This document shows, piece by piece, positions 39,052 through 60,591 of a DNA stretch of 64,000 nucleotides (position 1 is its first letter; the number at the start of each line of letters is the position of its first letter). This stretch comes from Candidatus Cloacimonadota bacterium. Its GTDB lineage: Bacteria; Cloacimonadota; Cloacimonadia; Cloacimonadales; JAIOQZ01. The stretch lies in assembly GCA_021108395.1 (NCBI GenBank), contig JAIOQZ010000023.1, forward strand, positions 1-64,000, given 5' to 3'. The position numbers and the translations under genes were made by a program. The notes beneath the pieces are model-generated. The model saw only the letters and a program-made list of their open reading frames with translations. It had not been told where the DNA came from and did no database searches.

Positions 39052-39146
39052 AGAGAGGATGGGTCTGGTGGCTCAGCCGGCCTGCAAAGCCGGTAGCGGG
39101 CGGATAACACCGTCCGTGGCAGGTTCGATTCCTGCCCTCTCGGCCA
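39052..39146 (+). tRNA. selC: tRNA-Sec-like gene with GCA (cysteine) anticodon
   Basis: The fold is that of a selenocysteine tRNA. There is a six-pair D stem with a four-base loop (39060-39075), anticodon stem CCGGC/GCCGG with loop CTGCAAA (39082-39088), an eight-pair variable arm (39096-39117), T arm GCAGG-TTCGATT-CCTGC, and encoded CCA. Anticodon bases 39084-39086 are GCA, not the usual TCA. The acceptor-T helix shows only 11 contiguous Watson-Crick pairs (6+5), plus an A-G apposition at 39052/39142; the usual Sec layout is 8+5. A sixth T-stem pair (39118/39136) would compete with the last acceptor pair. The 5' end may be 39052 or 39053. The gene sits 21 bases before selA. A canonical tRNA-Cys(GCA) is present at 60518-60591. 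Confidence 0.8.
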
Positions 39147-39167: not shown

Positions 39168-40553
39168 ATGAGCAACACATCTTTGCGCCTGCTCCCAGGC
39201 GTCGATACGCTGCTGGAGCACCCCGTCATCAAGCCGCTTGTGGAGCGGTTCGGGCACCCGCTGTCCGTGTGGGCCGCACGCGCCGGCATCGAGCTGGCCC
39301 GCAGCCGCGCTGTCGAGTCGGGCTTCGAGGTTGACCTCGATGCCATCGCCGCCGAGACCGCCGCCACCATCCGCCGCATCAGCGAACCATCCATGCGCCC
39401 CATCATCAACGGTACCGGCGTGGTCATCCACACCAACATCGGCCGTGCGCCGCTGGGTCGGGCGCTCACCCTCGAACTGGCGCGTACCTGCGCCGGTTAC
39501 TGCAATCTCGAGTTCGACCTGGACAGTGGCGGGCGGGGAAGCCGCATCGAGCTGATCCGCGAGCTGCTACGGTTTGTCACCGGCGCCGAGGACGCGGTGG
39601 TGGTGAACAACAACGCCGCGGCTGTGCTGCTCATTCTCAAGACATTCGCTGAGGGACGCGAGGTCATCATCTCGCGGGGAGAACTCATCGAGATCGGCGG
39701 CAGCTTTCGCATACCGGAGATCATGGCGGCCGGCGGTGCGAGGATGGTCGAAGTGGGCACAACCAATCGCACCCATCTGCGCGACTACGAAGAGGCTATC
39801 ACCGAGAACACCGCGGTCATATTCAAGGCGCACAAGAGCAATTTTTACATCGGCGGGTTCACCGAAGACGTGGATCTGGAAGAGCTTGCCGCTCTGGCGA
39901 GAGAACATAATCTGCTGCTGGTCTATGACATCGGCTCCGGCCTGCTGCGCAAGCCGGAATCGCTTGACCTCGAACGTGAGCCGGATGTGAAAAGCAGTCT
40001 GTCCGCCGGCGCCGACCTCGTCTGCTTCTCTGGCGACAAGCTGCTGGGCGGCCCGCAGGCCGGTATCGTGGTGGGCAAGGGCTGCCACGTCGAGCGCCTG
40101 GCGCGTCACCCGATGATGCGCGCCCTGCGAGTGGGCAAGCTCACCCTCGCGGCGCTGTCGTTCGTTGTCCGCGCCTTCCTGCGCGATGAAGACCTGTTGG
40201 CCAGAGTGCCGCTGTTCGCTATGCTCGACCGCAAACCGCAGGAAATCGAAAGACTGGCCACGAAGCTGCTGGCCGCGTTGCAGTCGGCTGGCGTTGCGGC
40301 GGAGATAATCGACAGCAAAGCCCAGGTGGGCGGTGGCACGTTGCCGCATCTTGTCATCGACAGTCGCGCTGTGCGTCTGCTGTCTTCCGACCGTCGCGAC
40401 CGCCACTTCGCCGAGAAAGTCCATCATCGCTTGCTGCAACGCGACAAGCCTGTGCTGGGCATCCTGCGCGAGGGCAGCCTGCTGTTCGACGTTCTCAGCC
40501 TGTTCGACGACGACATCCCCGTTGTGGCGGAGGCGGTGAAGGAGACGCTGTGA
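39168..40553 (+). CDS. selA: L-seryl-tRNA(Sec) selenium transferase
   Basis: The 461-residue PLP enzyme turns Ser-tRNA(Sec) into Sec-tRNA(Sec) with selenophosphate. It shows RPIINGTGVVIHTNIGRAPL, NNNAAAVLL, SRGELIEIGGSFRIPEIM and the PLP lysine in CFSGDKLLGGPQAG. Length is normal for SelA. It begins after GAGGAGC and overlaps selB by ATGA-type coupling. SelD, which supplies selenophosphate, is not in the window. Confidence 0.95.
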   Translation: MSNTSLRLLPGVDTLLEHPVIKPLVERFGHPLSVWAARAGIELARSRAVESGFEVDLDAIAAETAATIRRISEPSMRPIINGTGVVIHTNIGRAPLGRALTLELARTCAGYCNLEFDLDSGGRGSRIELIRELLRFVTGAEDAVVVNNNAAAVLLILKTFAEGREVIISRGELIEIGGSFRIPEIMAAGGARMVEVGTTNRTHLRDYEEAITENTAVIFKAHKSNFYIGGFTEDVDLEELAALAREHNLLLVYDIGSGLLRKPESLDLEREPDVKSSLSAGADLVCFSGDKLLGGPQAGIVVGKGCHVERLARHPMMRALRVGKLTLAALSFVVRAFLRDEDLLARVPLFAMLDRKPQEIERLATKLLAALQSAGVAAEIIDSKAQVGGGTLPHLVIDSRAVRLLSSDRRDRHFAEKVHHRLLQRDKPVLGILREGSLLFDVLSLFDDDIPVVAEAVKETL

Positions 40554-42529
40554 AGCATCTCATAATGGGTACCGCCGGGCACATCGACCACGGCAAGACC
40601 ACCCTCATTCAGAAACTGACCGGCGCTTGGTGCGACACGCACAAGGAAGAGGAACTGCGCGGCATCACCATCAGTCTCGGCTTCACCCACCTCGACCTGC
40701 CCTCCGGCAATAGCCTGGGTGTTGTCGATGTGCCTGGCCACGCCGATTTCATCGGCACGATGGTGGCCGGCGCCAGCGGCATCGACTTCGCGTTGCTTGT
40801 GGTGGCCACCGATGAGGGCGTGATGCCGCAGACACGCGAGCACCTGGCCATCATGCAGACATTGCAGATTCAAACTGGCCTGGTGGCGCTCACCAAGAGC
40901 GACCTCGTTGATGATGAGGTCATCGAACTGGCGCGTGAGGAGATATGCGAGCTGACCGGGGGCAGCTTTCTCGAAGACTGCCCGATTGTGCCGGTGTCGT
41001 CACGCACCGGCGCCGGGCTCGATGAACTGGTGCGGGAACTCGAAGCAATGCCCCAGCGTGTTCCCGAACGCGCTGAAGGCCACATATTTCGCCTTTTCAT
41101 CGACCGCCATTTCTCCGTACCCGGTCACGGCACAGTTGTCAACGGCTCGGTGTTGAGCGGCTGCGTTCGCCGCGAGGGGCAGCTATACATGCTGCCGGGC
41201 GCCCAGAAACTGCGTGTGCGCAGGCTCGAACGTCATGGACGCGAGGTGGACGAAGTGCGCACCGGTGACCGCGCCGCCCTCAACCTGCCCGGCCTCGACC
41301 GCGCCGACGTGCATCGCGGTATGGCCTTGTCGGATCGCGTATTGCAGCCCACCGGCATTCTCGACGCCCACCTGCGCCTGTTTGCGCATGGCAAGGCGCT
41401 CGAGCTGTGGTCACAGGTGAACTTTCTGCTGGGCACGGTGCACACAGTCGCCCGTGTTCACCTCATCGACCGCAATCGCCTTGAAGGCGGCGACGCGGCC
41501 ATCGTGCAAATTCATCTCGACCAGCCGCTGATTGCCATGCACGGCGATTGCTTCGTCATTCGCAGCAGCAGTGGCGACCGCACACTTGGCGGCGGCGAGA
41601 TATTCGATCCACAACCGCTGCATCACCGGCGCAGGCCGGAAAAGCTCATCGAGCGGCTGCGCGAGATTGCCGAGGGCGGGCTGCCGGAGCTTGTGGCGGC
41701 CGAGGTGCGCAAGCGTGTGTCGCCCGTTGGCCACGAGCGCGTGGCCGACCTGCTGGGCGCTTCGGCGCAGGAGGTGCTCGAGGTGGTCTCGCATGGCCTG
41801 TCCGACGACATCCTCACGCTGGCCGGAAAAGAGAAAGTTTACCTCTGGCAGCGCAAGCGCAAGGAAAAGATGGCCAAGCGCGTGGTGCGCAACATCGAGC
41901 TGCACCACAAGCGCAATCCGCTCGTGGCAGAGGGTCGCAGCTTCGAGGAATTGATGGGGCTGTTTGGCGTTGGCCGCGACCCCGACACCGAGTCGGCCAT
42001 GCACCTGCTGCTGGATGAGCTGATACAAACCAGCCGGCTGAAGCGCGAAAAGCATACCTGGACGCTGCCCGACCACTCGGTGAAGCTGGATCGCAAAGAC
42101 TGGAGCCAGATAGACTTTGTCGATAACTACCTGCGCAACGAAGGCATGCACCTGCCGCTGCTCAACAACCTCATCGAGAGAGCCGCCGAGAAGGGCTTTG
42201 ACGAGGGCCGCCTGCGGCAGATTCTGCGACTGCTGGTGCACCGAGGCCGGGCCTATTACATCGAGGGTAACTGGATTCACGCCCATGTGGTTGACGGCGT
42301 CCGCCAGACGTTGCTGAAGCGCCTGGTCGCCACCGGCGAACCCATCACCGTGGCCGATTTTCGCGACCTTGTAAAGGGCAACCGCCGCATGTGTCTGCCA
42401 CTCATCAACCAGTTCGACAAGGAAGGCGTCACCACCCGCGAGGGCGATTATCGCCACCTCACCCGCAAGGGCAGCGCGCTGGTGGAGCAATGGGAGCAAG
42501 CCGAAACCGGCGACGCGAAAGCTGACTGA
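40550..42529 (+). CDS. selB: Selenocysteine-specific elongation factor
   Basis: The 659-residue protein has an EF-Tu-like GTPase domain (GTAGHIDHGKTTL, DVPGHADFIGTM, TKSD) and beta-barrel domains. A C-terminal half of winged helices (from about residue 420; LLNNLIERAAEKGFDEGRLR) would read the SECIS hairpin. It delivers Sec-tRNA to the ribosome. The complete winged-helix part indicates mRNA-directed insertion is still in use, which matters given the altered anticodon of the neighbouring tRNA. Confidence 0.95.
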   Translation: MKHLIMGTAGHIDHGKTTLIQKLTGAWCDTHKEEELRGITISLGFTHLDLPSGNSLGVVDVPGHADFIGTMVAGASGIDFALLVVATDEGVMPQTREHLAIMQTLQIQTGLVALTKSDLVDDEVIELAREEICELTGGSFLEDCPIVPVSSRTGAGLDELVRELEAMPQRVPERAEGHIFRLFIDRHFSVPGHGTVVNGSVLSGCVRREGQLYMLPGAQKLRVRRLERHGREVDEVRTGDRAALNLPGLDRADVHRGMALSDRVLQPTGILDAHLRLFAHGKALELWSQVNFLLGTVHTVARVHLIDRNRLEGGDAAIVQIHLDQPLIAMHGDCFVIRSSSGDRTLGGGEIFDPQPLHHRRRPEKLIERLREIAEGGLPELVAAEVRKRVSPVGHERVADLLGASAQEVLEVVSHGLSDDILTLAGKEKVYLWQRKRKEKMAKRVVRNIELHHKRNPLVAEGRSFEELMGLFGVGRDPDTESAMHLLLDELIQTSRLKREKHTWTLPDHSVKLDRKDWSQIDFVDNYLRNEGMHLPLLNNLIERAAEKGFDEGRLRQILRLLVHRGRAYYIEGNWIHAHVVDGVRQTLLKRLVATGEPITVADFRDLVKGNRRMCLPLINQFDKEGVTTREGDYRHLTRKGSALVEQWEQAETGDAKAD

Positions 42530-42546: not shown

Positions 42547-43701
42547 ATGATGCAACCTGTTTATCTCGACTACAATGCCACAACGCCGGTCGCGCCGGAG
42601 GCGCTCGAGGCCATGATGCCCTATCTGTGTGAGCATTTTGGCAACCCCGTCAGCGGCCACGCTTTCGGAGAACAGCCCGAAGAGGCCATTTACGCCGCCC
42701 GTGAGCAGGTTGCCGCCTGCGTGGGCGCGTGTCCCGATGAAATCATCTTCACCAGCGGGGGCACCGAGTCCAACAATCTCGCCCTCCTGGGAGTGATGCG
42801 AGCGCTTAAGCGGCGCAATGCCCATGTTGTTATCAGCATGGTCGAGCATCCATCCATAGAGAATGTTTGCCGTCACCTCGAAAGCGAAGGCCACTGCGGT
42901 ACGCGGTTGCCGGTGGACGCCACAGGCCGTGTTGCCCCCAGCGATCTGCGCGTCGCTCTGCGGCCTGAAACGGCGTTGGTGAGCGTGATGTTGGCCAACA
43001 ATGAAGTCGGCACACTGCAACCGGTGAAAGAGCTGGCGGCCATAGCCCACGAGCATGGGGCGCTGATGCACACAGACGCCGCTCAGGCGGTGGGCAAAGC
43101 GCCGGTGGATGTGGACGAGCTGGGCGTTGATTTACTGAGTATCGCCGGGCAAAAGATGTATGCTCCCAAGGGTGTCGGCGCGCTGTATGTGCGTCGCGAC
43201 ACGCCGCTATATCCGCTTATGTACGGCGCGAACCAGGAGAACGGACTACGCCCCGGCACACAGAACGTGCCATACATTGTGGCGCTGGGCGTTGCTTGCC
43301 AACTGGCCTCGGCGCGACTGGATGAATATGCCGGCCACATGCGCGCCATGCGTGATCGTCTCTACCGCGCCCTGCTCGACGCCGATCTCTTTCCCCGACT
43401 GAACGGCCATCCAGAGCTGCGGCTGCCCAACACGCTCAGCGTGGGCTTTGCCGGCCTGTTGGCCGCCGACCTGCTGTTGGCTATGAAGGGCGAGGTTGCC
43501 GCGTCTGCCGGATCGGCATGCCACACGGGATCGATAGAGATATCATCAGTGTTGCAGGCGATGGGTGTGCCTTTGGATGTCGCGGCAGGCACACTGAGGT
43601 TGTCAACGGGACGCGGAACGACCGAAGTGGATATCGACCGCGCAGCGGCGGTCATCATTCAGGCGGTGCAGAGCTTACGGGCGCAGCAACTGCTGCGCTG
43701 A
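42547..43701 (+). CDS. Cysteine desulfurase family protein
   Basis: The 384-residue PLP enzyme is of the NifS/IscS class: YLDYNATTPVAPEAL, TSGGTESNNLALLG, VEHPS, the PLP lysine in SIAGQKMYAPKGVGALY, and the catalytic cysteine in AGSACHTGSIEIS. The AGQK and SACHTG variants differ from IscS. They fit a group I associate with selenium loci, where the enzyme may release selenium from selenocysteine for SelD. It lies 17 bases after selB, so it is probably in the same operon. A housekeeping sulphur role remains possible. Confidence 0.85.
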   Translation: MMQPVYLDYNATTPVAPEALEAMMPYLCEHFGNPVSGHAFGEQPEEAIYAAREQVAACVGACPDEIIFTSGGTESNNLALLGVMRALKRRNAHVVISMVEHPSIENVCRHLESEGHCGTRLPVDATGRVAPSDLRVALRPETALVSVMLANNEVGTLQPVKELAAIAHEHGALMHTDAAQAVGKAPVDVDELGVDLLSIAGQKMYAPKGVGALYVRRDTPLYPLMYGANQENGLRPGTQNVPYIVALGVACQLASARLDEYAGHMRAMRDRLYRALLDADLFPRLNGHPELRLPNTLSVGFAGLLAADLLLAMKGEVAASAGSACHTGSIEISSVLQAMGVPLDVAAGTLRLSTGRGTTEVDIDRAAAVIIQAVQSLRAQQLLR

Positions 43702-44292
43702 ATGTTCGAGAAAGGTTCTATTGCGAAGCACGTCATTGCCGGCGTACTTTTCTGATTTCCCGTAGCGCTGACGACGCTGGTCGAAACGCTGGATAACAGC
43801 AGGCAACGCCGACAGCCAGCGGCCTGGGTCGAGAGGAAGGCGAGCGCGGTACGCTCCGATGAACACCTGACAGGTGTGCATGAAGGCATCGTGCGGCTGG
43901 TTGGCAGCCCAGAACAGCAGGAAGTGAATGAGGTCGGGTTCAGGGTAGTCGAGGGCGATGTGCGAGAAATCGATGAGCCAGCCCCGGCTGGATCCCTGGA
44001 GGAAGTTTCGCGGGTTGGTGTCAACCATCGTGAGCGCCATTTCCTTGTGCCGCTGGAACATATGCAGATCGGCCAGCAATCCCCCAGCCATATGGAAATC
44101 GGGGGTGTCGCACTCGATGAGCGGAATGCCAGGCACTCGCTCGATGATAATCATGTCGCTGCCGTTGTCGCTCAGCAGGGTTGGGGCAAAGTCGGGATGC
44201 GCATCGTAAACCCGTTTCTCGCGCAAGAAATGCTCGTGATCGTCAAACCGCTTGATAACGCGGTCTTCATGCAACGTCACCCGCTTGTTCAT
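43675..44292 (-). CDS. Small kinase-fold (APH/RIO-like) protein
   Basis: The 205-residue protein carries the catalytic core of the protein-kinase-like phosphotransferases. MVDTNPRNFL (D..NPRN catalytic loop) is followed by WLIDFSHIALDYPEPDLIHF (the DF metal site). A short N-lobe holds VIKRF as the likely ATP lysine and IIIERVPGIPL as the hinge. It is much shorter than aminoglycoside phosphotransferases. It overlaps the upstream TPR/DHp gene by four bases (ATGA), so it is translationally coupled. Its 3' end overlaps that of the convergent desulfurase by 27 bases. Confidence 0.65.
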   Translation of the reverse strand: MNKRVTLHEDRVIKRFDDHEHFLREKRVYDAHPDFAPTLLSDNGSDMIIIERVPGIPLIECDTPDFHMAGGLLADLHMFQRHKEMALTMVDTNPRNFLQGSSRGWLIDFSHIALDYPEPDLIHFLLFWAANQPHDAFMHTCQVFIGAYRARLPLDPGRWLSALPAVIQRFDQRRQRYGKSEKYAGNDVLRNRTFLEHSAQQLLRP

Positions 44293-45893
44293 TTTTCTGG
44301 AGGCGTGTTCTGGACTGTTTCTTCGTCATCGAACTCTGCCATGTCTTCAAATACAATCATGGGCGTGTTCTTGGCGTAGTTATCGAAGGTGAGGTGGGTG
44401 GATGTCTTGAACTTGTTCAGAATCTGAGTCATCCGAGTGAAGGACTGCTCGATTCTGTTGAGGTAATGGATCTGTTTTACCGTGAGCTTGTCTTCCGGGG
44501 TTTCGAGGTGGAACATGTCGAGATTGCCTTTCATCACCATGAGCGGTTGGTTGAGTTCATGGTGGGCTGTAACAGCCAGCGCCAGAGCCGAGTTGCGCTT
44601 CTCGAGGCGGATTAGCTCGTTCTGCGTATCCTGGAGTATGTAGTAGGAGTTCTCGAGTTCTTCGTTTTTCTGGCGCAGCAGTTCGGCTTCCTTTTCTTTC
44701 TGCACAGTTTCATACTTTGTCTGCATCTCGGCGATGGCTTTGCTCTTTTCTTCATTGAAAATATTGTCTTTGAGCAAGGCGTATTTGCGGTATGCGTCCA
44801 GCGCCTCTTTGTAGCGCTCGGTTTTCTCGAACAGTTTTGAAAGCGCGAGACAGGTGTGCATGGATTCGCGGCGTAGCTGTGCCGCTTCGGTCACGGCCAG
44901 GCTTTCGTCGAGATAGCGTCGGGCATCGTCCCAGTGTTGTTGTTGAATCTTTACCTTACCCAGGCTGCGCAGGCAACTTGCGATTCGGTCTTTGTAATTG
45001 ATTTCACGGGCAATTTGCAGCGCCATCAGCAGATTCTGCTCTGCCTTGTCGATGTGGCCAAGCTCCAGCTCGACAAGCCCGATATCGTAATGCGAATATG
45101 CAATGCCCTCTTTGTGTCCGGTTTGCGTGGACAGATCGAGCGCCAGGTTGAAGGAGGCCAGCGCTTCTTTATAGCGTTTGGCGAGGCTGTGCATATGCCC
45201 GATCTTGCTGCTGGTTTGCGAGGCGCGCTCTTTCAGGCCAATCTTTTTGGCAATGGCCAGCGCGCGCACATAAAAATCCATGGCTTTTTCGGGGTTGTTT
45301 TGCGCCGCGTAGATGTTACCGATGTTTGCCAGCGGGTCGATGATAATGTCGAGGCGCTCGATGGCTTCGGCAATCTCGAGGCAGTGAAGCTGGTATTGCA
45401 GCGCTTTCTCGTTGTCGCCCCAACCGAAATACAGTTCGCCGATGTTCATGTTGCAGACGGCTACGCAGGCTTTGTCGTCGATTTGCTTGGAAATGGCGAG
45501 TGACTGCCGATAATAATCGAGCGCTTCCTTGTGCTTGCCTGAGTTGTGATAGTTGATTGCCAGGTTGTTAAGGCATCGCGCTACACCTTTATCGTAGCCA
45601 ATCTCACGCGCAATGTTCATCGACTGAATGTAGTTTTCATCCGCTTTATCTGGCATACCCTTAACGCCGTAAGCTACACCGATGTAGCGCAACGCCAGCG
45701 ATTCGATATGCCTGTCATGAAGCTCACGGGCGGCGCCGAGCGCCCGAAAGCCACAATCAAGGCTTTTTGCCACGTCCACCAACGCATAGGCGTATGACAG
45801 GTCACAGAGCGTCTTCGCACGTTCGCGCTGTGTTTCCGTGTCACAGCCGTTGAGAAGACCAAGTTGCTGATCGAGCGCTTCAATGCTTTTCAT
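44289..45893 (-). CDS. TPR protein ending in a histidine-kinase DHp segment (paralogue 2)
   Basis: The 534-residue protein has nine or so TPR repeats (residues ~20-380; DKADENYIQSMNIAREIGYD, HKEALDYYRQSLAISKQ). A coiled coil (~385-440) follows, then ALAVTAHHELNQPLMVMKGN, an H-box of the HisKA dimerisation domain with the phosphorylatable histidine. The chain ends about 70 residues later. The N, G1 and G2 boxes of an ATPase domain are absent. There is no signal peptide, so it is cytoplasmic. It is a tandem duplicate of the next gene upstream and shares a 134-base block with it without a difference. Confidence 0.75.
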   Translation of the reverse strand: MKSIEALDQQLGLLNGCDTETQRERAKTLCDLSYAYALVDVAKSLDCGFRALGAARELHDRHIESLALRYIGVAYGVKGMPDKADENYIQSMNIAREIGYDKGVARCLNNLAINYHNSGKHKEALDYYRQSLAISKQIDDKACVAVCNMNIGELYFGWGDNEKALQYQLHCLEIAEAIERLDIIIDPLANIGNIYAAQNNPEKAMDFYVRALAIAKKIGLKERASQTSSKIGHMHSLAKRYKEALASFNLALDLSTQTGHKEGIAYSHYDIGLVELELGHIDKAEQNLLMALQIAREINYKDRIASCLRSLGKVKIQQQHWDDARRYLDESLAVTEAAQLRRESMHTCLALSKLFEKTERYKEALDAYRKYALLKDNIFNEEKSKAIAEMQTKYETVQKEKEAELLRQKNEELENSYYILQDTQNELIRLEKRNSALALAVTAHHELNQPLMVMKGNLDMFHLETPEDKLTVKQIHYLNRIEQSFTRMTQILNKFKTSTHLTFDNYAKNTPMIVFEDMAEFDDEETVQNTPPEK

Positions 45894-45929: not shown

Positions 45930-47534
45930 TCATTTCTCTGGAAGCGTGTTCTGGACTGTTTCTTTATCCCCGAATTCTGTCTTATCTTCAAATACAATCA
46001 TGGGCGTATTCTGAGCGTAGTTGTCGAAGGTGAGGTGGGTTGATGTCTTGAACTTGTTCAGAATCTGCGTCATTCGATTGAAGGACTGCTCTACTCTGTC
46101 AAGGTAATGGAGCTGCTTTTCTGTGAGCTTATTCTTCTGGGCTTCGAGGTGGAACATGTCGAGATTGCCTTTCATCACCATGAGCGGCTGGTTGAGTTCG
46201 TGGTGAGCGGTAACAGCCAGCGCCAGAGCCGAGTTACGCTTCTCGAGGTTGATAAGCTCGTTCTGCGTATCCTGGAGCATACTGTAGGAGTTCTCGAGTT
46301 CTTCGTTCTTCAGACGCAGCAGTTCGGCTTCCTTCTCTTTTTGCTCAGTTTCGTACTTGGTCTGCATTTCGGTGATGGCCTTGTTCTTTTCTTCATTGAA
46401 GATACTGTCCTTGAGCGAAGTGTATTCGCGGTATGCTTCCAGAGCTTCTTTGTAATGCTCGGTTTGCTCGAACAGATAGGAGAGCGTGAGCAAGGTGCGA
46501 AGCGTTTCGCGTGGGAACTTTGCCGACTTGGCAACGGCGAGGCTTTCATCCAGATAGCATCGGGCGGCGTCCCACTGTTCAGTCAATATCTTCACTTGCC
46601 CCAGGCTGCGCAGAAAGCTTGCGATTCGGTCTTTGTAATTGATTTCACGGGCAATTTGCAGCGCCATCAGCAGATTCTGCTCTGCCTTGTCGATGTGGCC
46701 AAGCTCCAGCTCGACAAGCCCGATATCGTAATGCGAATATGCAATGCCCTCATTATGCCCGGTTTGCGTGGATAGCTCGAGCGCCTGGTTGAAGTAGATC
46801 AGCGCTTCTTCGTAACTATTGGCGCGACGATGCAAGTGGCCAATTTTGCTGCTGGACTGAGAAGCTCGCTCCTTGAGGCCTTCTTGTTCGGCAAGGGCCA
46901 GCGCTCGTGTATAATACTCCATGGCTTTTTCGGAGTTGTCCTGCGCCGAGTAGATTCTGCCGATTTGAATCAGCGGGTCGATAGTGATGTCGGGGCGCTC
47001 GATGGCTTCGGTTATCTCGATGCCTTGAAGCTGGTATTGCAGCGCTTTCTCGCTGTCGCCCCAGTCAAAGTACAGTTCGCCGATGTTGATATAGCTGATG
47101 GCTACGCCGGACTGGTCGTCGATTTGTTTGTATATGGTAAGAGCCTGATGATAGAAATCGAGCGCTTCCTTATGCCTGCCTGTGTTGTGATAGTTGATTG
47201 CCAGGTTGTTGAGGCAACTTGCAACACCATCCTCGTAATCAACTTCACGTGCGATGGCCATCGCCTGCATGTAGTACTCAACCGCTTTGTCTGCATTGCC
47301 CTCTGTGCCATAGGAAATGCCGATGTAGCGCAATGCAAGCGATTCGAGAGTCTTGTCATGGAGCTCACGCGCCTGACTCTGCGCTTTGATCGCGTATTCA
47401 CGGGCTTTCTTCACATCCACCAGCGAGTAAGCGTATGCCAGCTCGCAGAGCGTTTGCGTGTGCTTGCGCTGTGTGTCCGGATTGCACCCGTTTAAGAGAG
47501 CGAGTTGTTGCTCAAGCTTTTCAATGCTTCTCAT
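45930..47534 (-). CDS. TPR protein ending in a histidine-kinase DHp segment (paralogue 1)
   Basis: This is the ~534-residue paralogue of the previous entry with the same order: TPR array, coiled coil, H-box AVTAHHELNQPLMVMKGN, and a tail ending in NTPMIVFEDKTEFGDKE. The ATPase domain is again missing. ATG 47534 (MRSIEKLEQQ) matches the paralogue's start; an in-frame ATG at 47558 would add eight residues. The start overlaps the end of mobB. Possible roles are a phosphotransfer or sensing subunit that borrows an ATPase from another kinase. Confidence 0.75.
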   Translation of the reverse strand: MRSIEKLEQQLALLNGCNPDTQRKHTQTLCELAYAYSLVDVKKAREYAIKAQSQARELHDKTLESLALRYIGISYGTEGNADKAVEYYMQAMAIAREVDYEDGVASCLNNLAINYHNTGRHKEALDFYHQALTIYKQIDDQSGVAISYINIGELYFDWGDSEKALQYQLQGIEITEAIERPDITIDPLIQIGRIYSAQDNSEKAMEYYTRALALAEQEGLKERASQSSSKIGHLHRRANSYEEALIYFNQALELSTQTGHNEGIAYSHYDIGLVELELGHIDKAEQNLLMALQIAREINYKDRIASFLRSLGQVKILTEQWDAARCYLDESLAVAKSAKFPRETLRTLLTLSYLFEQTEHYKEALEAYREYTSLKDSIFNEEKNKAITEMQTKYETEQKEKEAELLRLKNEELENSYSMLQDTQNELINLEKRNSALALAVTAHHELNQPLMVMKGNLDMFHLEAQKNKLTEKQLHYLDRVEQSFNRMTQILNKFKTSTHLTFDNYAQNTPMIVFEDKTEFGDKETVQNTLPEK

Positions 47535-48300
47535 CTGTTTTTCCCGCATCGCTGTCATTATCTGAAATAGTCAGTTCGATAGACCCTGGTCGCACGCCTT
47601 TCAGGTTGCTCACAATGCCGCGCACCACGTCGCGCAGAATTGTCTGGATGAACGGCACAATGTGCAGGTCTTGCCCTGCCACGCGCAAGCGCACGCTTCT
47701 GTCGTCGCGGCTGCAAGCTTCTCGGGGGTTGTCGCCGCTCAGAATGGAGCCAACCATTCCATAGCACCCTAACCCACAGGCAAAACAGCAGGCGTCGTCA
47801 ACGAGAGGCAGCACGTCGAACACCTTGCGCTCGACAAGCTCGACCAGCGCCTCGGGGTCGTTCAGCGCCGAAATCACCGGAATGCCGCGCCATTCGCGCA
47901 GGTTGTCGGCAATCTTGCCGGAAATGGCGAACACCGTGTCGTCAACCAGTTCTTCGAGCTGCGCTTCGGTCTCGGCGCAGACGATGCGCGGAATGGCCGT
48001 GTCCTTCATGCCCTCGACAACCACCCAGTCGGCGTCGAGATAGGTGAGCATCTGCGGCAGGCCGAGCGCCCGTCGCCACAGAAGCCCTGTCTCGCGCAGT
48101 CCCCTGGCGAACACCGGCTCGGCGCCGGCATCTGCGTGTTTCCAGGAGTTGCTCCCCTGGCTGTCCAAAGTAAAGCCTTCGCTGTGGATGTCCTTGATAG
48201 ACATCACCTTGTGCCCGCGCTTGCGCAGTCCGCCGATGAGTCGGCAAACCGCAGTGGTCTTGCCGGTGTGGTGGTACCCCGCTACACTGAAAACTTTCAT
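47521..48300 (-). CDS. mobB: MobB-like GTP-binding protein with C-terminal cysteine cluster
   Basis: The 259-residue protein has the MobB pattern: Walker A GYHHTGKTT, then DIHSEGFTLDSQGSNSWKHA and DWVVVEGMKD. MobB assists guanylation of molybdopterin for molybdenum or tungsten enzymes. It carries an added ~80-residue C-terminal region with CCFACGLGCYGM (C-C-x2-C-x3-C), which could bind an iron-sulphur cluster or metal. Standard MobB proteins are about 170 residues. It is the first gene of a minus-strand run with the TPR/DHp genes. Confidence 0.75.
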   Translation of the reverse strand: MKVFSVAGYHHTGKTTAVCRLIGGLRKRGHKVMSIKDIHSEGFTLDSQGSNSWKHADAGAEPVFARGLRETGLLWRRALGLPQMLTYLDADWVVVEGMKDTAIPRIVCAETEAQLEELVDDTVFAISGKIADNLREWRGIPVISALNDPEALVELVERKVFDVLPLVDDACCFACGLGCYGMVGSILSGDNPREACSRDDRSVRLRVAGQDLHIVPFIQTILRDVVRGIVSNLKGVRPGSIELTISDNDSDAGKTDEKH

Positions 48301-59178: not shown

Positions 59179-59988
59179 TTACTCGGACAGGCTGACGCCG
59201 ACGACGGACTTGACGGTTTTGTACATCTGGTAGCCGTCATTGCCCACAAAGACGACGCGGTTCTTCTCCGGCACCCACCAGCCCTTCTCCATGTCGCTCC
59301 AGGTGAAGGTGTTGTTGGTGTCGTCATTCACCCAGCCATCGCTGGCGACGAAGATGAAGCTGTAATCGACAGGCGTTTCCGTCACATACTCGGTGATGAT
59401 GTTGGTGATGGGGAAGGCGTCGTAGGTGACCATCTCGGTGTCGTCGTCGTGGTAATAGTAGCTGAGCGCCTTGACATCGTACTGACTCAACTCGAAGGGC
59501 GTCACCAGGCCGTCGTCGCCCGTTACCATGATGGTGCGATACATGTTCACGTAATCGGCATACTTCACGTTGTACGCCGAGGCGACATCGTCGCTGGGAA
59601 ACCAGGTGCGGCCATCTGCGTCGGGCAGCAGGTAGCCAGTCTCGAAGGTCGCCCAGTCGAGATCCCAGGTGGTGTTGCTGCTGTTGCGCGGGTTCCAATC
59701 GTCGCTCGCTACAATCTGGTAGTGATACTCGGTTGGCTCCATGTCGCGTTGTTCGATGGGGAAGAACTGCGCCAGCGGGTAGCCCTGCATGGTAACGTCG
59801 TCGTAATTGACGTCTTCGCTGGTGTAGCCATCGAGCGATTCGGGGAACTCGAAGGTGGCGTCCGGTGTGTCGGAGAGAACCGGTGCCGCGGGGCCGTTGC
59901 CGCCGCCAGTGCTGTCCGATTCACTGCATGCGGTGAGGGCGAACAGTGTGGCCAGCAGCAGAATGATGAAAACTCGCGAGTGCTTCAT
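59179..59988 (-). CDS. Lipoprotein with G-Y-P-L domains, first gene of ECF operon
   Basis: From ATG 59988 (site GGAGGT) the protein has 269 residues. It starts with a lipoprotein signal (FIILLLATLFALTAC, lipobox LTAC). It contains VTMQGYPLAQFFPIE followed by YHYQIVASDDWNPRN, and later YVNMYRTIMVTGDDGLVTPF and YSFIFVASDGW. These repeated V.SDDG/DGW strands match the motif of the other exported proteins here. Being first behind the structured leader, it is probably the most expressed. It may be the periplasmic or surface binding protein of the system. Confidence 0.6.
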   Translation of the reverse strand: MKHSRVFIILLLATLFALTACSESDSTGGGNGPAAPVLSDTPDATFEFPESLDGYTSEDVNYDDVTMQGYPLAQFFPIEQRDMEPTEYHYQIVASDDWNPRNSSNTTWDLDWATFETGYLLPDADGRTWFPSDDVASAYNVKYADYVNMYRTIMVTGDDGLVTPFELSQYDVKALSYYYHDDDTEMVTYDAFPITNIITEYVTETPVDYSFIFVASDGWVNDDTNNTFTWSDMEKGWWVPEKNRVVFVGNDGYQMYKTVKSVVGVSLSE

Positions 59989-60010
59989 GATACCTCCAAA
60001 GTGTTTTTTG

Positions 60011-60040
60011 AAGGCAGAAAAGTAGTGTACTTTCCGCCTT
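60011..60040 (-). promoter_or_regulatory. Hairpin just upstream of ECF operon ribosome site
   Basis: On the minus strand AAGGCGGAAAGTA / TACTTTTCTGCCTT form a stem with a CAC loop and one or two bulges, ending about 12 bases before GGAGGT. No U-run follows, so it is more likely a translational control element than a terminator. Confidence 0.5.
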
Positions 60041-60050
60041 TCCAAGCACG

Positions 60051-60199
60051 GGAGGCATGTCCGTTTCCAGGCATACCCTATCGGTGACGCGCCATACCAA
60101 CGCTATGTTACGTTGGCTTCAGGCCACGCCACTCGGCGTAATGCCAACTTCGCGGGGCGCACGGGGGTTGTCAAGAAAAGCCCCTGAGCGATAGGTATG
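60051..60199 (-). promoter_or_regulatory. Structured leader with alternative pairings (candidate riboswitch)
   Basis: On the minus strand an 11-pair closing stem (CATACCTATCG with CGATAGGGTATG, one bulged G; 60189-60199 with 60072-60083) encloses several arms. These are GGGGC/GCCCC, GTTGGC/GCCAAC (60112-60148) and CCAACG/CGTTGG (60097-60116). The last two share five bases, so only one can form. The 3' side of the closing stem can instead pair downstream (GGTATG with CATGCC). Such exclusive pairings are the mark of a switch. No known riboswitch consensus is recognised; a repeat element is the alternative. Confidence 0.45.
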
Positions 60200-60517: not shown

Positions 60518-60591
60518 TGGAGGCGACACCCGGATTCGAACCGGGGATGAGGATTTTGCAGACCCTTGCCTTACCACTTGGCCATGTCGCC
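60518..60591 (-). tRNA. tRNA-Cys (GCA)
   Basis: Acceptor GGCGACA pairs with TGTCGCC, discriminator T and encoded CCA, as expected for Cys. The anticodon loop CTGCAAA gives GCA, and the variable loop is short. This is the standard cysteine tRNA and contrasts with the Sec-shaped GCA tRNA at 39 kb. Confidence 0.95.

Follow-up and report, generated by a model that had tools for sequence, protein, structure and literature searches.

The window, a stretch of 64,000 nucleotides from the genome of a Candidatus Cloacimonadota bacterium (G000), carries at 39052-39146 an intact tRNA-Sec (selC) gene with the anticodon GCA, followed on the same strand by selA, selB and a gene for a NifS-type cysteine desulfurase (Table 1). 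A tRNA with a long variable arm, a six-pair D stem and the anticodon loop CTGCAAA had been read directly from the letters in the earlier note, 21 bases before selA, and this observation was confirmed by a full-length match to the Rfam tRNA-Sec model (RF01852, 39049-39145, forward strand, 62.0 bits with a gathering threshold of 47, E 3.5e-10). At the same locus tRNA-Cys(gca) was called by ARAGORN (39053-39142), because this program names tRNAs by their anticodon.

Table 1. Features of the tRNA-Sec locus and of other parts of the window
Feature	Position	Strand	Basis and remarks
tRNA-Sec (selC), GCA anticodon	39052..39146	+	RF01852, 62 bits; ARAGORN tRNA-Cys(gca); sequence; 'Cloacimonetes type' 7+5 acceptor/T arm, long variable arm, CCA encoded
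Acceptor stem, 7 bp, first pair A·G mismatched	39052-39058/39136-39142	+	sequence
D arm, 6 pairs and 4-base loop	39060..39075 (stem 39060-39065/39070-39075)	+	sequence; pairs 8/8 across GCA genomes
Anticodon stem, loop CTGCAAA	39076-39081/39089-39094	+	sequence
Anticodon GCA (G34 replacing T34 of TCA)	39084..39086	+	sequence; common to 9 genomes of the phylum
Long variable arm, 7 bp (SerRS identity)	39097..39116	+	sequence and GCA-genome alignment
T-stem	39119-39123/39131-39135	+	sequence
Discriminator G73 (Ser/Sec type)	39143	+	sequence
Encoded CCA	39144-39146	+	sequence
selA, L-seryl-tRNA(Sec) selenium transferase	39168..40553	+	TIGR00474, 527 bits (cutoff 268); SelA Pfam, 440 bits
selB, Sec-specific elongation factor, SECIS-binding winged-helix end	40550..42529	+	TIGR00475, 335 bits (cutoff 242); SelB-wing_3
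NifS-type cysteine desulfurase	42547..43701	+	TIGR03402, 453 bits (below cutoff 531)
Repeat protein, TPR-like by eye	44289-45893	-	
Repeat protein, TPR-like by eye	45930-47558	-	
Molybdenum/tungsten cofactor riboswitch	60019-60150	-	RF01055, 66.7 bits
Ordinary tRNA-Cys (GCA, T73)	60518..60591	-	ARAGORN; RF00005

The D arm agrees with the 5-6 bp stem and 4-base loop of bacterial tRNA-Sec, an extended arm that is recognised by SelA (PMC7609411), and the long variable arm and G73 correspond to the SerRS identity features of bacterial tRNA-Sec. The acceptor branch has 7+5 pairs with the first one mismatched in place of the canonical 13 bp (8+5), and the gene was therefore assigned to the 'Cloacimonetes type', a published exception whose body is shared with the TCA relatives. 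The anticodon is GCA in place of the usual UCA, and the gene was classed as an anticodon variant, a class of tRNA-Sec accepted in the literature (PMC8124441). A second selC with TCA, proposed earlier as a check, was searched for, and no second tRNA-Sec over the RF01852 cutoff was found in G000 genome-wide (2.89 Mb, 62 contigs, 98.3% complete).

SelA, SelB and SelD, all of which are called for by sense-codon Sec recoding, are full length in G000. The SECIS-reading half of SelB is kept, as had been stated in the earlier note, and the best named match of this protein is from Candidatus Zophobacter franzmannii (Candidatus Cloacimonadota), with 47% identity. The NifS-type desulfurase may possibly serve as a selenium donor step. 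The riboswitch lies upstream of an ORF at 59179-60045, for which no NCBIfam match was obtained, and its presence agrees with a molybdenum- or tungsten-dependent enzyme such as the FdhA of G000. The two repeat proteins on the reverse strand are very similar to each other and form a tandem pair, which is apparently a recent duplication.

GCA tRNA-Sec genes across the phylum

The tRNA-Sec model was searched against 59 genomes, 33 of which gave matches over the cutoff. The anticodon is TCA in most of the 33, and GCA was found in nine genomes (G000, G005, G006, G007, G008, G009, G013, G014 and G020) belonging to six families (f1, f5, f6, f7, f8 and f9). When 125 genomes of the phylum were scanned with a sequence pattern, one that misses the form of G009 and G020, no GCA tRNA-Sec beyond these nine was found. 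When eight GCA genes were aligned, every pair except the first acceptor pair was formed in seven or eight of the eight rows, compensatory changes were present in the acceptor (A-U to C-G), D and anticodon stems, and G73 was kept in all GCA tRNA-Secs. Most TCA relatives likewise have a mismatch at the first acceptor pair, and the 7+5 body is common to them, so that the odd acceptor is order-wide. Of the suspicion that a non-standard acceptor helix might mark a decayed gene, the first half thus stands (7+5, first pair A·G), and the decay was rejected, since the phylum normally has this form and the stems, with their compensatory changes, are intact. An assembly or base-calling error at 39084, where a true T had been considered, would need only a single base, by which TCA and GCA differ; it was nevertheless excluded, with a probability close to nil, since the GCA tRNA recurs in eight other genomes with different flanks and with TGY (TGC or TGT) codons to match.

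In the SelB tree, the SelBs of the GCA genomes fall outside the main TCA clade, with weakly supported deep branches. The G008 SelB groups with that of G000 (86/91), though the family of G008 is otherwise TCA, which hints at a horizontal transfer of the GCA system. In G008, selA, selB, yedF, selD and a desulfurase gene are located within about 12 kb (L135, G008:C16:258349-277441), and no selenoprotein other than SelD was found in this genome. In G001, the window's only same-family relative, selB is broken by one TAG (G001:C274:600-2480; L156, L190) and no tRNA-Sec match was obtained (genome 81% complete); the Sec system is possibly being lost there, or the assembly is at fault.

Codons and SECIS hairpins in SelD and FdhA

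For SelD, one in-frame TGA within AG*GAKLGPG or a variant of this motif, usually followed by a SECIS hairpin, is present in most TCA genomes and in none of the GCA-only genomes. The codon at the aligned site is TGC in G000 and G013 and TGT in G008; SelD of G005, G006, G009 and G020 is of the ordinary Cys type. For FdhA, TGA was found in ten genomes with a TCA tRNA (G019, G029, G032, G034, G036, G044, G053, G096, G097 and G101), usually with a SECIS hairpin after it; each of the eight GCA genomes in which the gene is present has TGC or TGT. The codons thus match the tRNA: the putative Sec sites of G000 are a TGC in SelD (contig C10:85458-85460) and a TGT in FdhA (contig C15:9162-9164), where TCA relatives have TGA, and by standard wobble the anticodon GCA reads both UGC and UGU.

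Both sites of G000 are followed by a SECIS hairpin, so that the Cys-codon fdhA and selD genes with SECIS that the earlier note had proposed to look for are both present. In SelD of the three GCA genomes, a perfect 7-bp stem with the loop CGUGY comes downstream of TGY (G000, TTAGGAC-CGTGC-GTCCTAA; G013, TTAGGGC-CGTGT-GCCTTAA; G008, CTAGGAC-CGTGT-GTCTTAG), and one pair is changed on both sides, from A-U in G000 to G-C in G013. In FdhA, the loop is GGUCU (GGTCT) in all eight genomes, as it also is in the SECIS of Escherichia coli fdhF, and seven pairs are formed in seven of them. The hairpins were evaluated by synonymous-codon resampling with the codon usage of each gene itself, and the P values, which are not independent because the tested genomes are related, were 0.0003 (G000), 0.005 (G013) and 0.01 (G008) for SelD, and for stem plus loop of FdhA 0.006-0.014 in each of seven genomes and 0.07 in G009. 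The outer FdhA pair, both bases of which are third codon positions, is G-C in G000, G005 and G013, A-U in G007 and G020, and U-A in G006 and G014, and only in G009 is it unpaired (C·U); this covariation is not explained by the protein sequence alone. The inner pairs are invariant among the GCA genomes and part of the stem is fixed by the protein sequence, which was counted against the reading of these sites as Sec.

The SelD stem has seven pairs in the GCA genomes versus five to six in the TCA genomes, and its loop is CGUGY versus a CGGGG-like sequence, with GU placed as in the FdhA loop GGUCU. These changes may strengthen the binding of SelB, and the longer stem and changed loop are in line with a competition at UGY by Cys-tRNA(Cys) on EF-Tu.

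For the background, 888 kb of G000 (31% of the genome) were scanned for a 7-bp stem with an NGTNN loop and a spacer of 8-13. Such a hairpin follows 15 of 62,794 TGY sites (2 in 10,000), two of which, those of SelD and FdhA, had been predicted before the scan, and no further convincing TGY and SECIS site was found in these 888 kb. One match in L286 (a 137-codon frame with a low-complexity peptide) and one in L277 (173 codons, spacer 13) appear fortuitous. In several TCA genomes FlpD/MvhD is a selenoprotein with TGA, and the six TGA copies examined all have the hairpin ATTACCA-GGT-TGGTAAT; the Cys-type FlpD of G000, G015, G025 and G042 has no hairpin, and FlpD/MvhD was accordingly rejected as a third UGY selenoprotein in G000. 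No hairpin was found either in the fused or Cys-type SelD of G005, G006, G009, G020 and G042, and GrdB is absent from G000 and from all GCA genomes searched. By these controls, the hairpin is missing from Cys homologues, and G000 also has Cys homologues that are not Sec proteins.

An exception is G098, with a TCA tRNA only, one SelB and an FdhA that has TGC together with an intact hairpin (contigs C58 and C131; L257 and L256). This FdhA groups with those of the TCA genomes and is probably a recent Sec-to-Cys change, from which it follows that a hairpin can outlast such a change for a while. A single hairpin after TGY is therefore not proof, and the argument for the GCA genomes is built on breadth, covariation and a tRNA that matches the codons. 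The same exception, together with the imperfect look of the A·G first acceptor pair, speaks for a relic, in which Sec has been lost and plain Cys is coded at the former Sec sites, with the tRNA, selA, selB and hairpins left over. Such a relic was judged improbable, because the tRNA stems are intact over six families, the three Sel proteins are full length, the outer FdhA pair covaries after TGY, the Cys-type copies of FlpD and SelD are devoid of hairpins, and the first acceptor pair is mismatched in TCA relatives as well.

Predicted insertion of Sec at cysteine codons and its relation to known systems

Based on the tRNA, the sel genes, the aligned codons and the hairpins observed, G000 very probably has a Sec-tRNA(GCA) system by which Sec would be inserted at SECIS-marked UGC and UGU codons, and the corresponding proposal of the earlier note is thereby supported. 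The general roles of SerRS, SelA and SelB/SECIS in the Sec pathway have been described (PMC7609411). In G000, the GCA tRNA would be charged with serine by SerRS through the long variable arm and G73, and the serylated tRNA would be converted into Sec-tRNA(GCA) by SelA, through recognition of the extended D arm and with selenophosphate from SelD. Sec-tRNA(GCA) would then be brought by SelB to UGC or UGU codons whose SECIS hairpin begins 9-11 bases downstream, the predicted targets being SelD itself (UGC) and the formate dehydrogenase FdhA (UGU). The competitor at these codons would be Cys-tRNA(Cys) on EF-Tu and not release factor 2, and cysteine would be placed at UGY codons without SECIS, all of which would be read by the ordinary tRNA-Cys of the window. 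When selenium is lacking, the Sec site would likely be read as Cys and a full-length protein still be made, which suggests a fail-safe design, a Cys enzyme rather than a truncated product being formed in selenium shortage.

The 12-bp length of the 7+5 acceptor/T arm is the canonical one accepted by EF-Tu, which was counted against the insertion of Sec restricted to UGY codons with SECIS and would allow Ser- or Sec-tRNA(GCA) to be delivered independently of SECIS, putting Ser or Sec at many Cys codons. This was regarded as very unlikely, as a replacement of Cys by Ser throughout the proteome would be harmful, the hairpins are kept at the two putative Sec sites and rare elsewhere, and an identical 7+5 body serves the TCA relatives. 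A similarly low probability was given to a selC*-like tRNA-Cys, which would be charged with cysteine and have its Cys delivered by SelB, as in the delta-proteobacterial selC*/SelB* pair. The selC* tRNA-Cys (Mukai 2017, in the account given by PMC7609411) resembles the window tRNA in its tRNA-Sec-like body, a possible GCA anticodon and a SelB partner in some lineages, and selB is nearby in the window. It is marked, however, by U73 and a modified 8/4 arm with a bulge, and the window tRNA has G at 39143, the 7+5 arm and SelA as partner; these features argue against a selC* identity. Moreover, selA adjoins the tRNA gene, selD is conserved, and nothing would be gained by SECIS delivery of Cys at Cys codons.

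The Sec-at-Cys-codon mechanism is, as a kind, already known. Anticodon variants of tRNA-Sec using UGC/UGU are mentioned in PMC8124441, citing Mukai 2016, and Sec at UGU in Aeromonas salmonicida in PMC10778597, citing Mukai et al. 2016 (Angew Chem). As far as these accounts describe it, sense-codon Sec recoding shares with the present case the Cys-codon anticodon, the matching UGC/UGU Sec site, the downstream SECIS and SelA/SelB/SelD, and the present case differs by its occurrence in Cloacimonadota, the 7+5 body, both SelD and FdhA as predicted targets, six families, and one relative with apparently both UGA and UGC systems. The 'Cloacimonetes type' of tRNA-Sec (7+5, 12-bp acceptor branch; Mukai 2016 according to PMC5330540) is from the same phylum and, to the extent given there, has the same acceptor/T arm and G73, with UCA instead of GCA. 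The canonical bacterial UGA system is alike in SelA, SelB, SelD, the SECIS hairpin and SelD and FdhA as selenoproteins, and differs in the codon and in the competitor. In a literature search for Cloacimonadota and selenocysteine named together no paper was found; Mukai 2016 may already list Cloacimonetes GCA tRNAs. What is new here is the matched codons, hairpins and controls phylum-wide, the depth in one phylum and the apparent dual code of G007.

G007 is a possible INTERMEDIATE. A TCA tRNA lies beside one selB, the GCA tRNA is on another contig, and a second selB is located beside selA; SelD has TGA, and FdhA has TGC with a hairpin. Of the two SelBs of G007, the one on the TCA side is placed inside the main TCA clade of the SelB tree and the other one outside. 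The five contigs concerned (C92, C116, C82, C30 and C101; L132, L131, L184, L101 and L258) have mutual tetranucleotide correlations of r 0.95-0.98, versus at most 0.94 to other genomes, and the bin (family f7) is 100% complete with 1% contamination, so that a mixed bin is unlikely. On balance, with a slight preference over the contrary, G007 may run UGA and UGC Sec codes together, the UCA tRNA and one SelB being assigned to the UGA of SelD, and the GCA tRNA and the second SelB to the UGC and SECIS of FdhA. If true, G007 represents an intermediate state in a transfer of Sec from stop to Cys codons. Such a state would explain the origin of single-code GCA genomes such as G000.

The annotation of selenoproteins relies on in-frame UGA, and Cys-codon selenoproteins are consequently invisible to it; SelD and FdhA of G000 would both pass for ordinary cysteine enzymes in an annotation. 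If the present reading is confirmed, the Sec code has been moved from stop to Cys codons across a broad range of Cloacimonadota from several families. Close relatives stand on both sides of this change and one genome apparently has both codes, so that the course of a natural codon shift becomes open to testing. Among the TCA relatives, three TGA copies of FlpD/MvhD lie close together in several genomes (G044:C80, G019:C34, G004:C439, G046:C85 and G042:C165), forming an unusually Sec-rich cluster.
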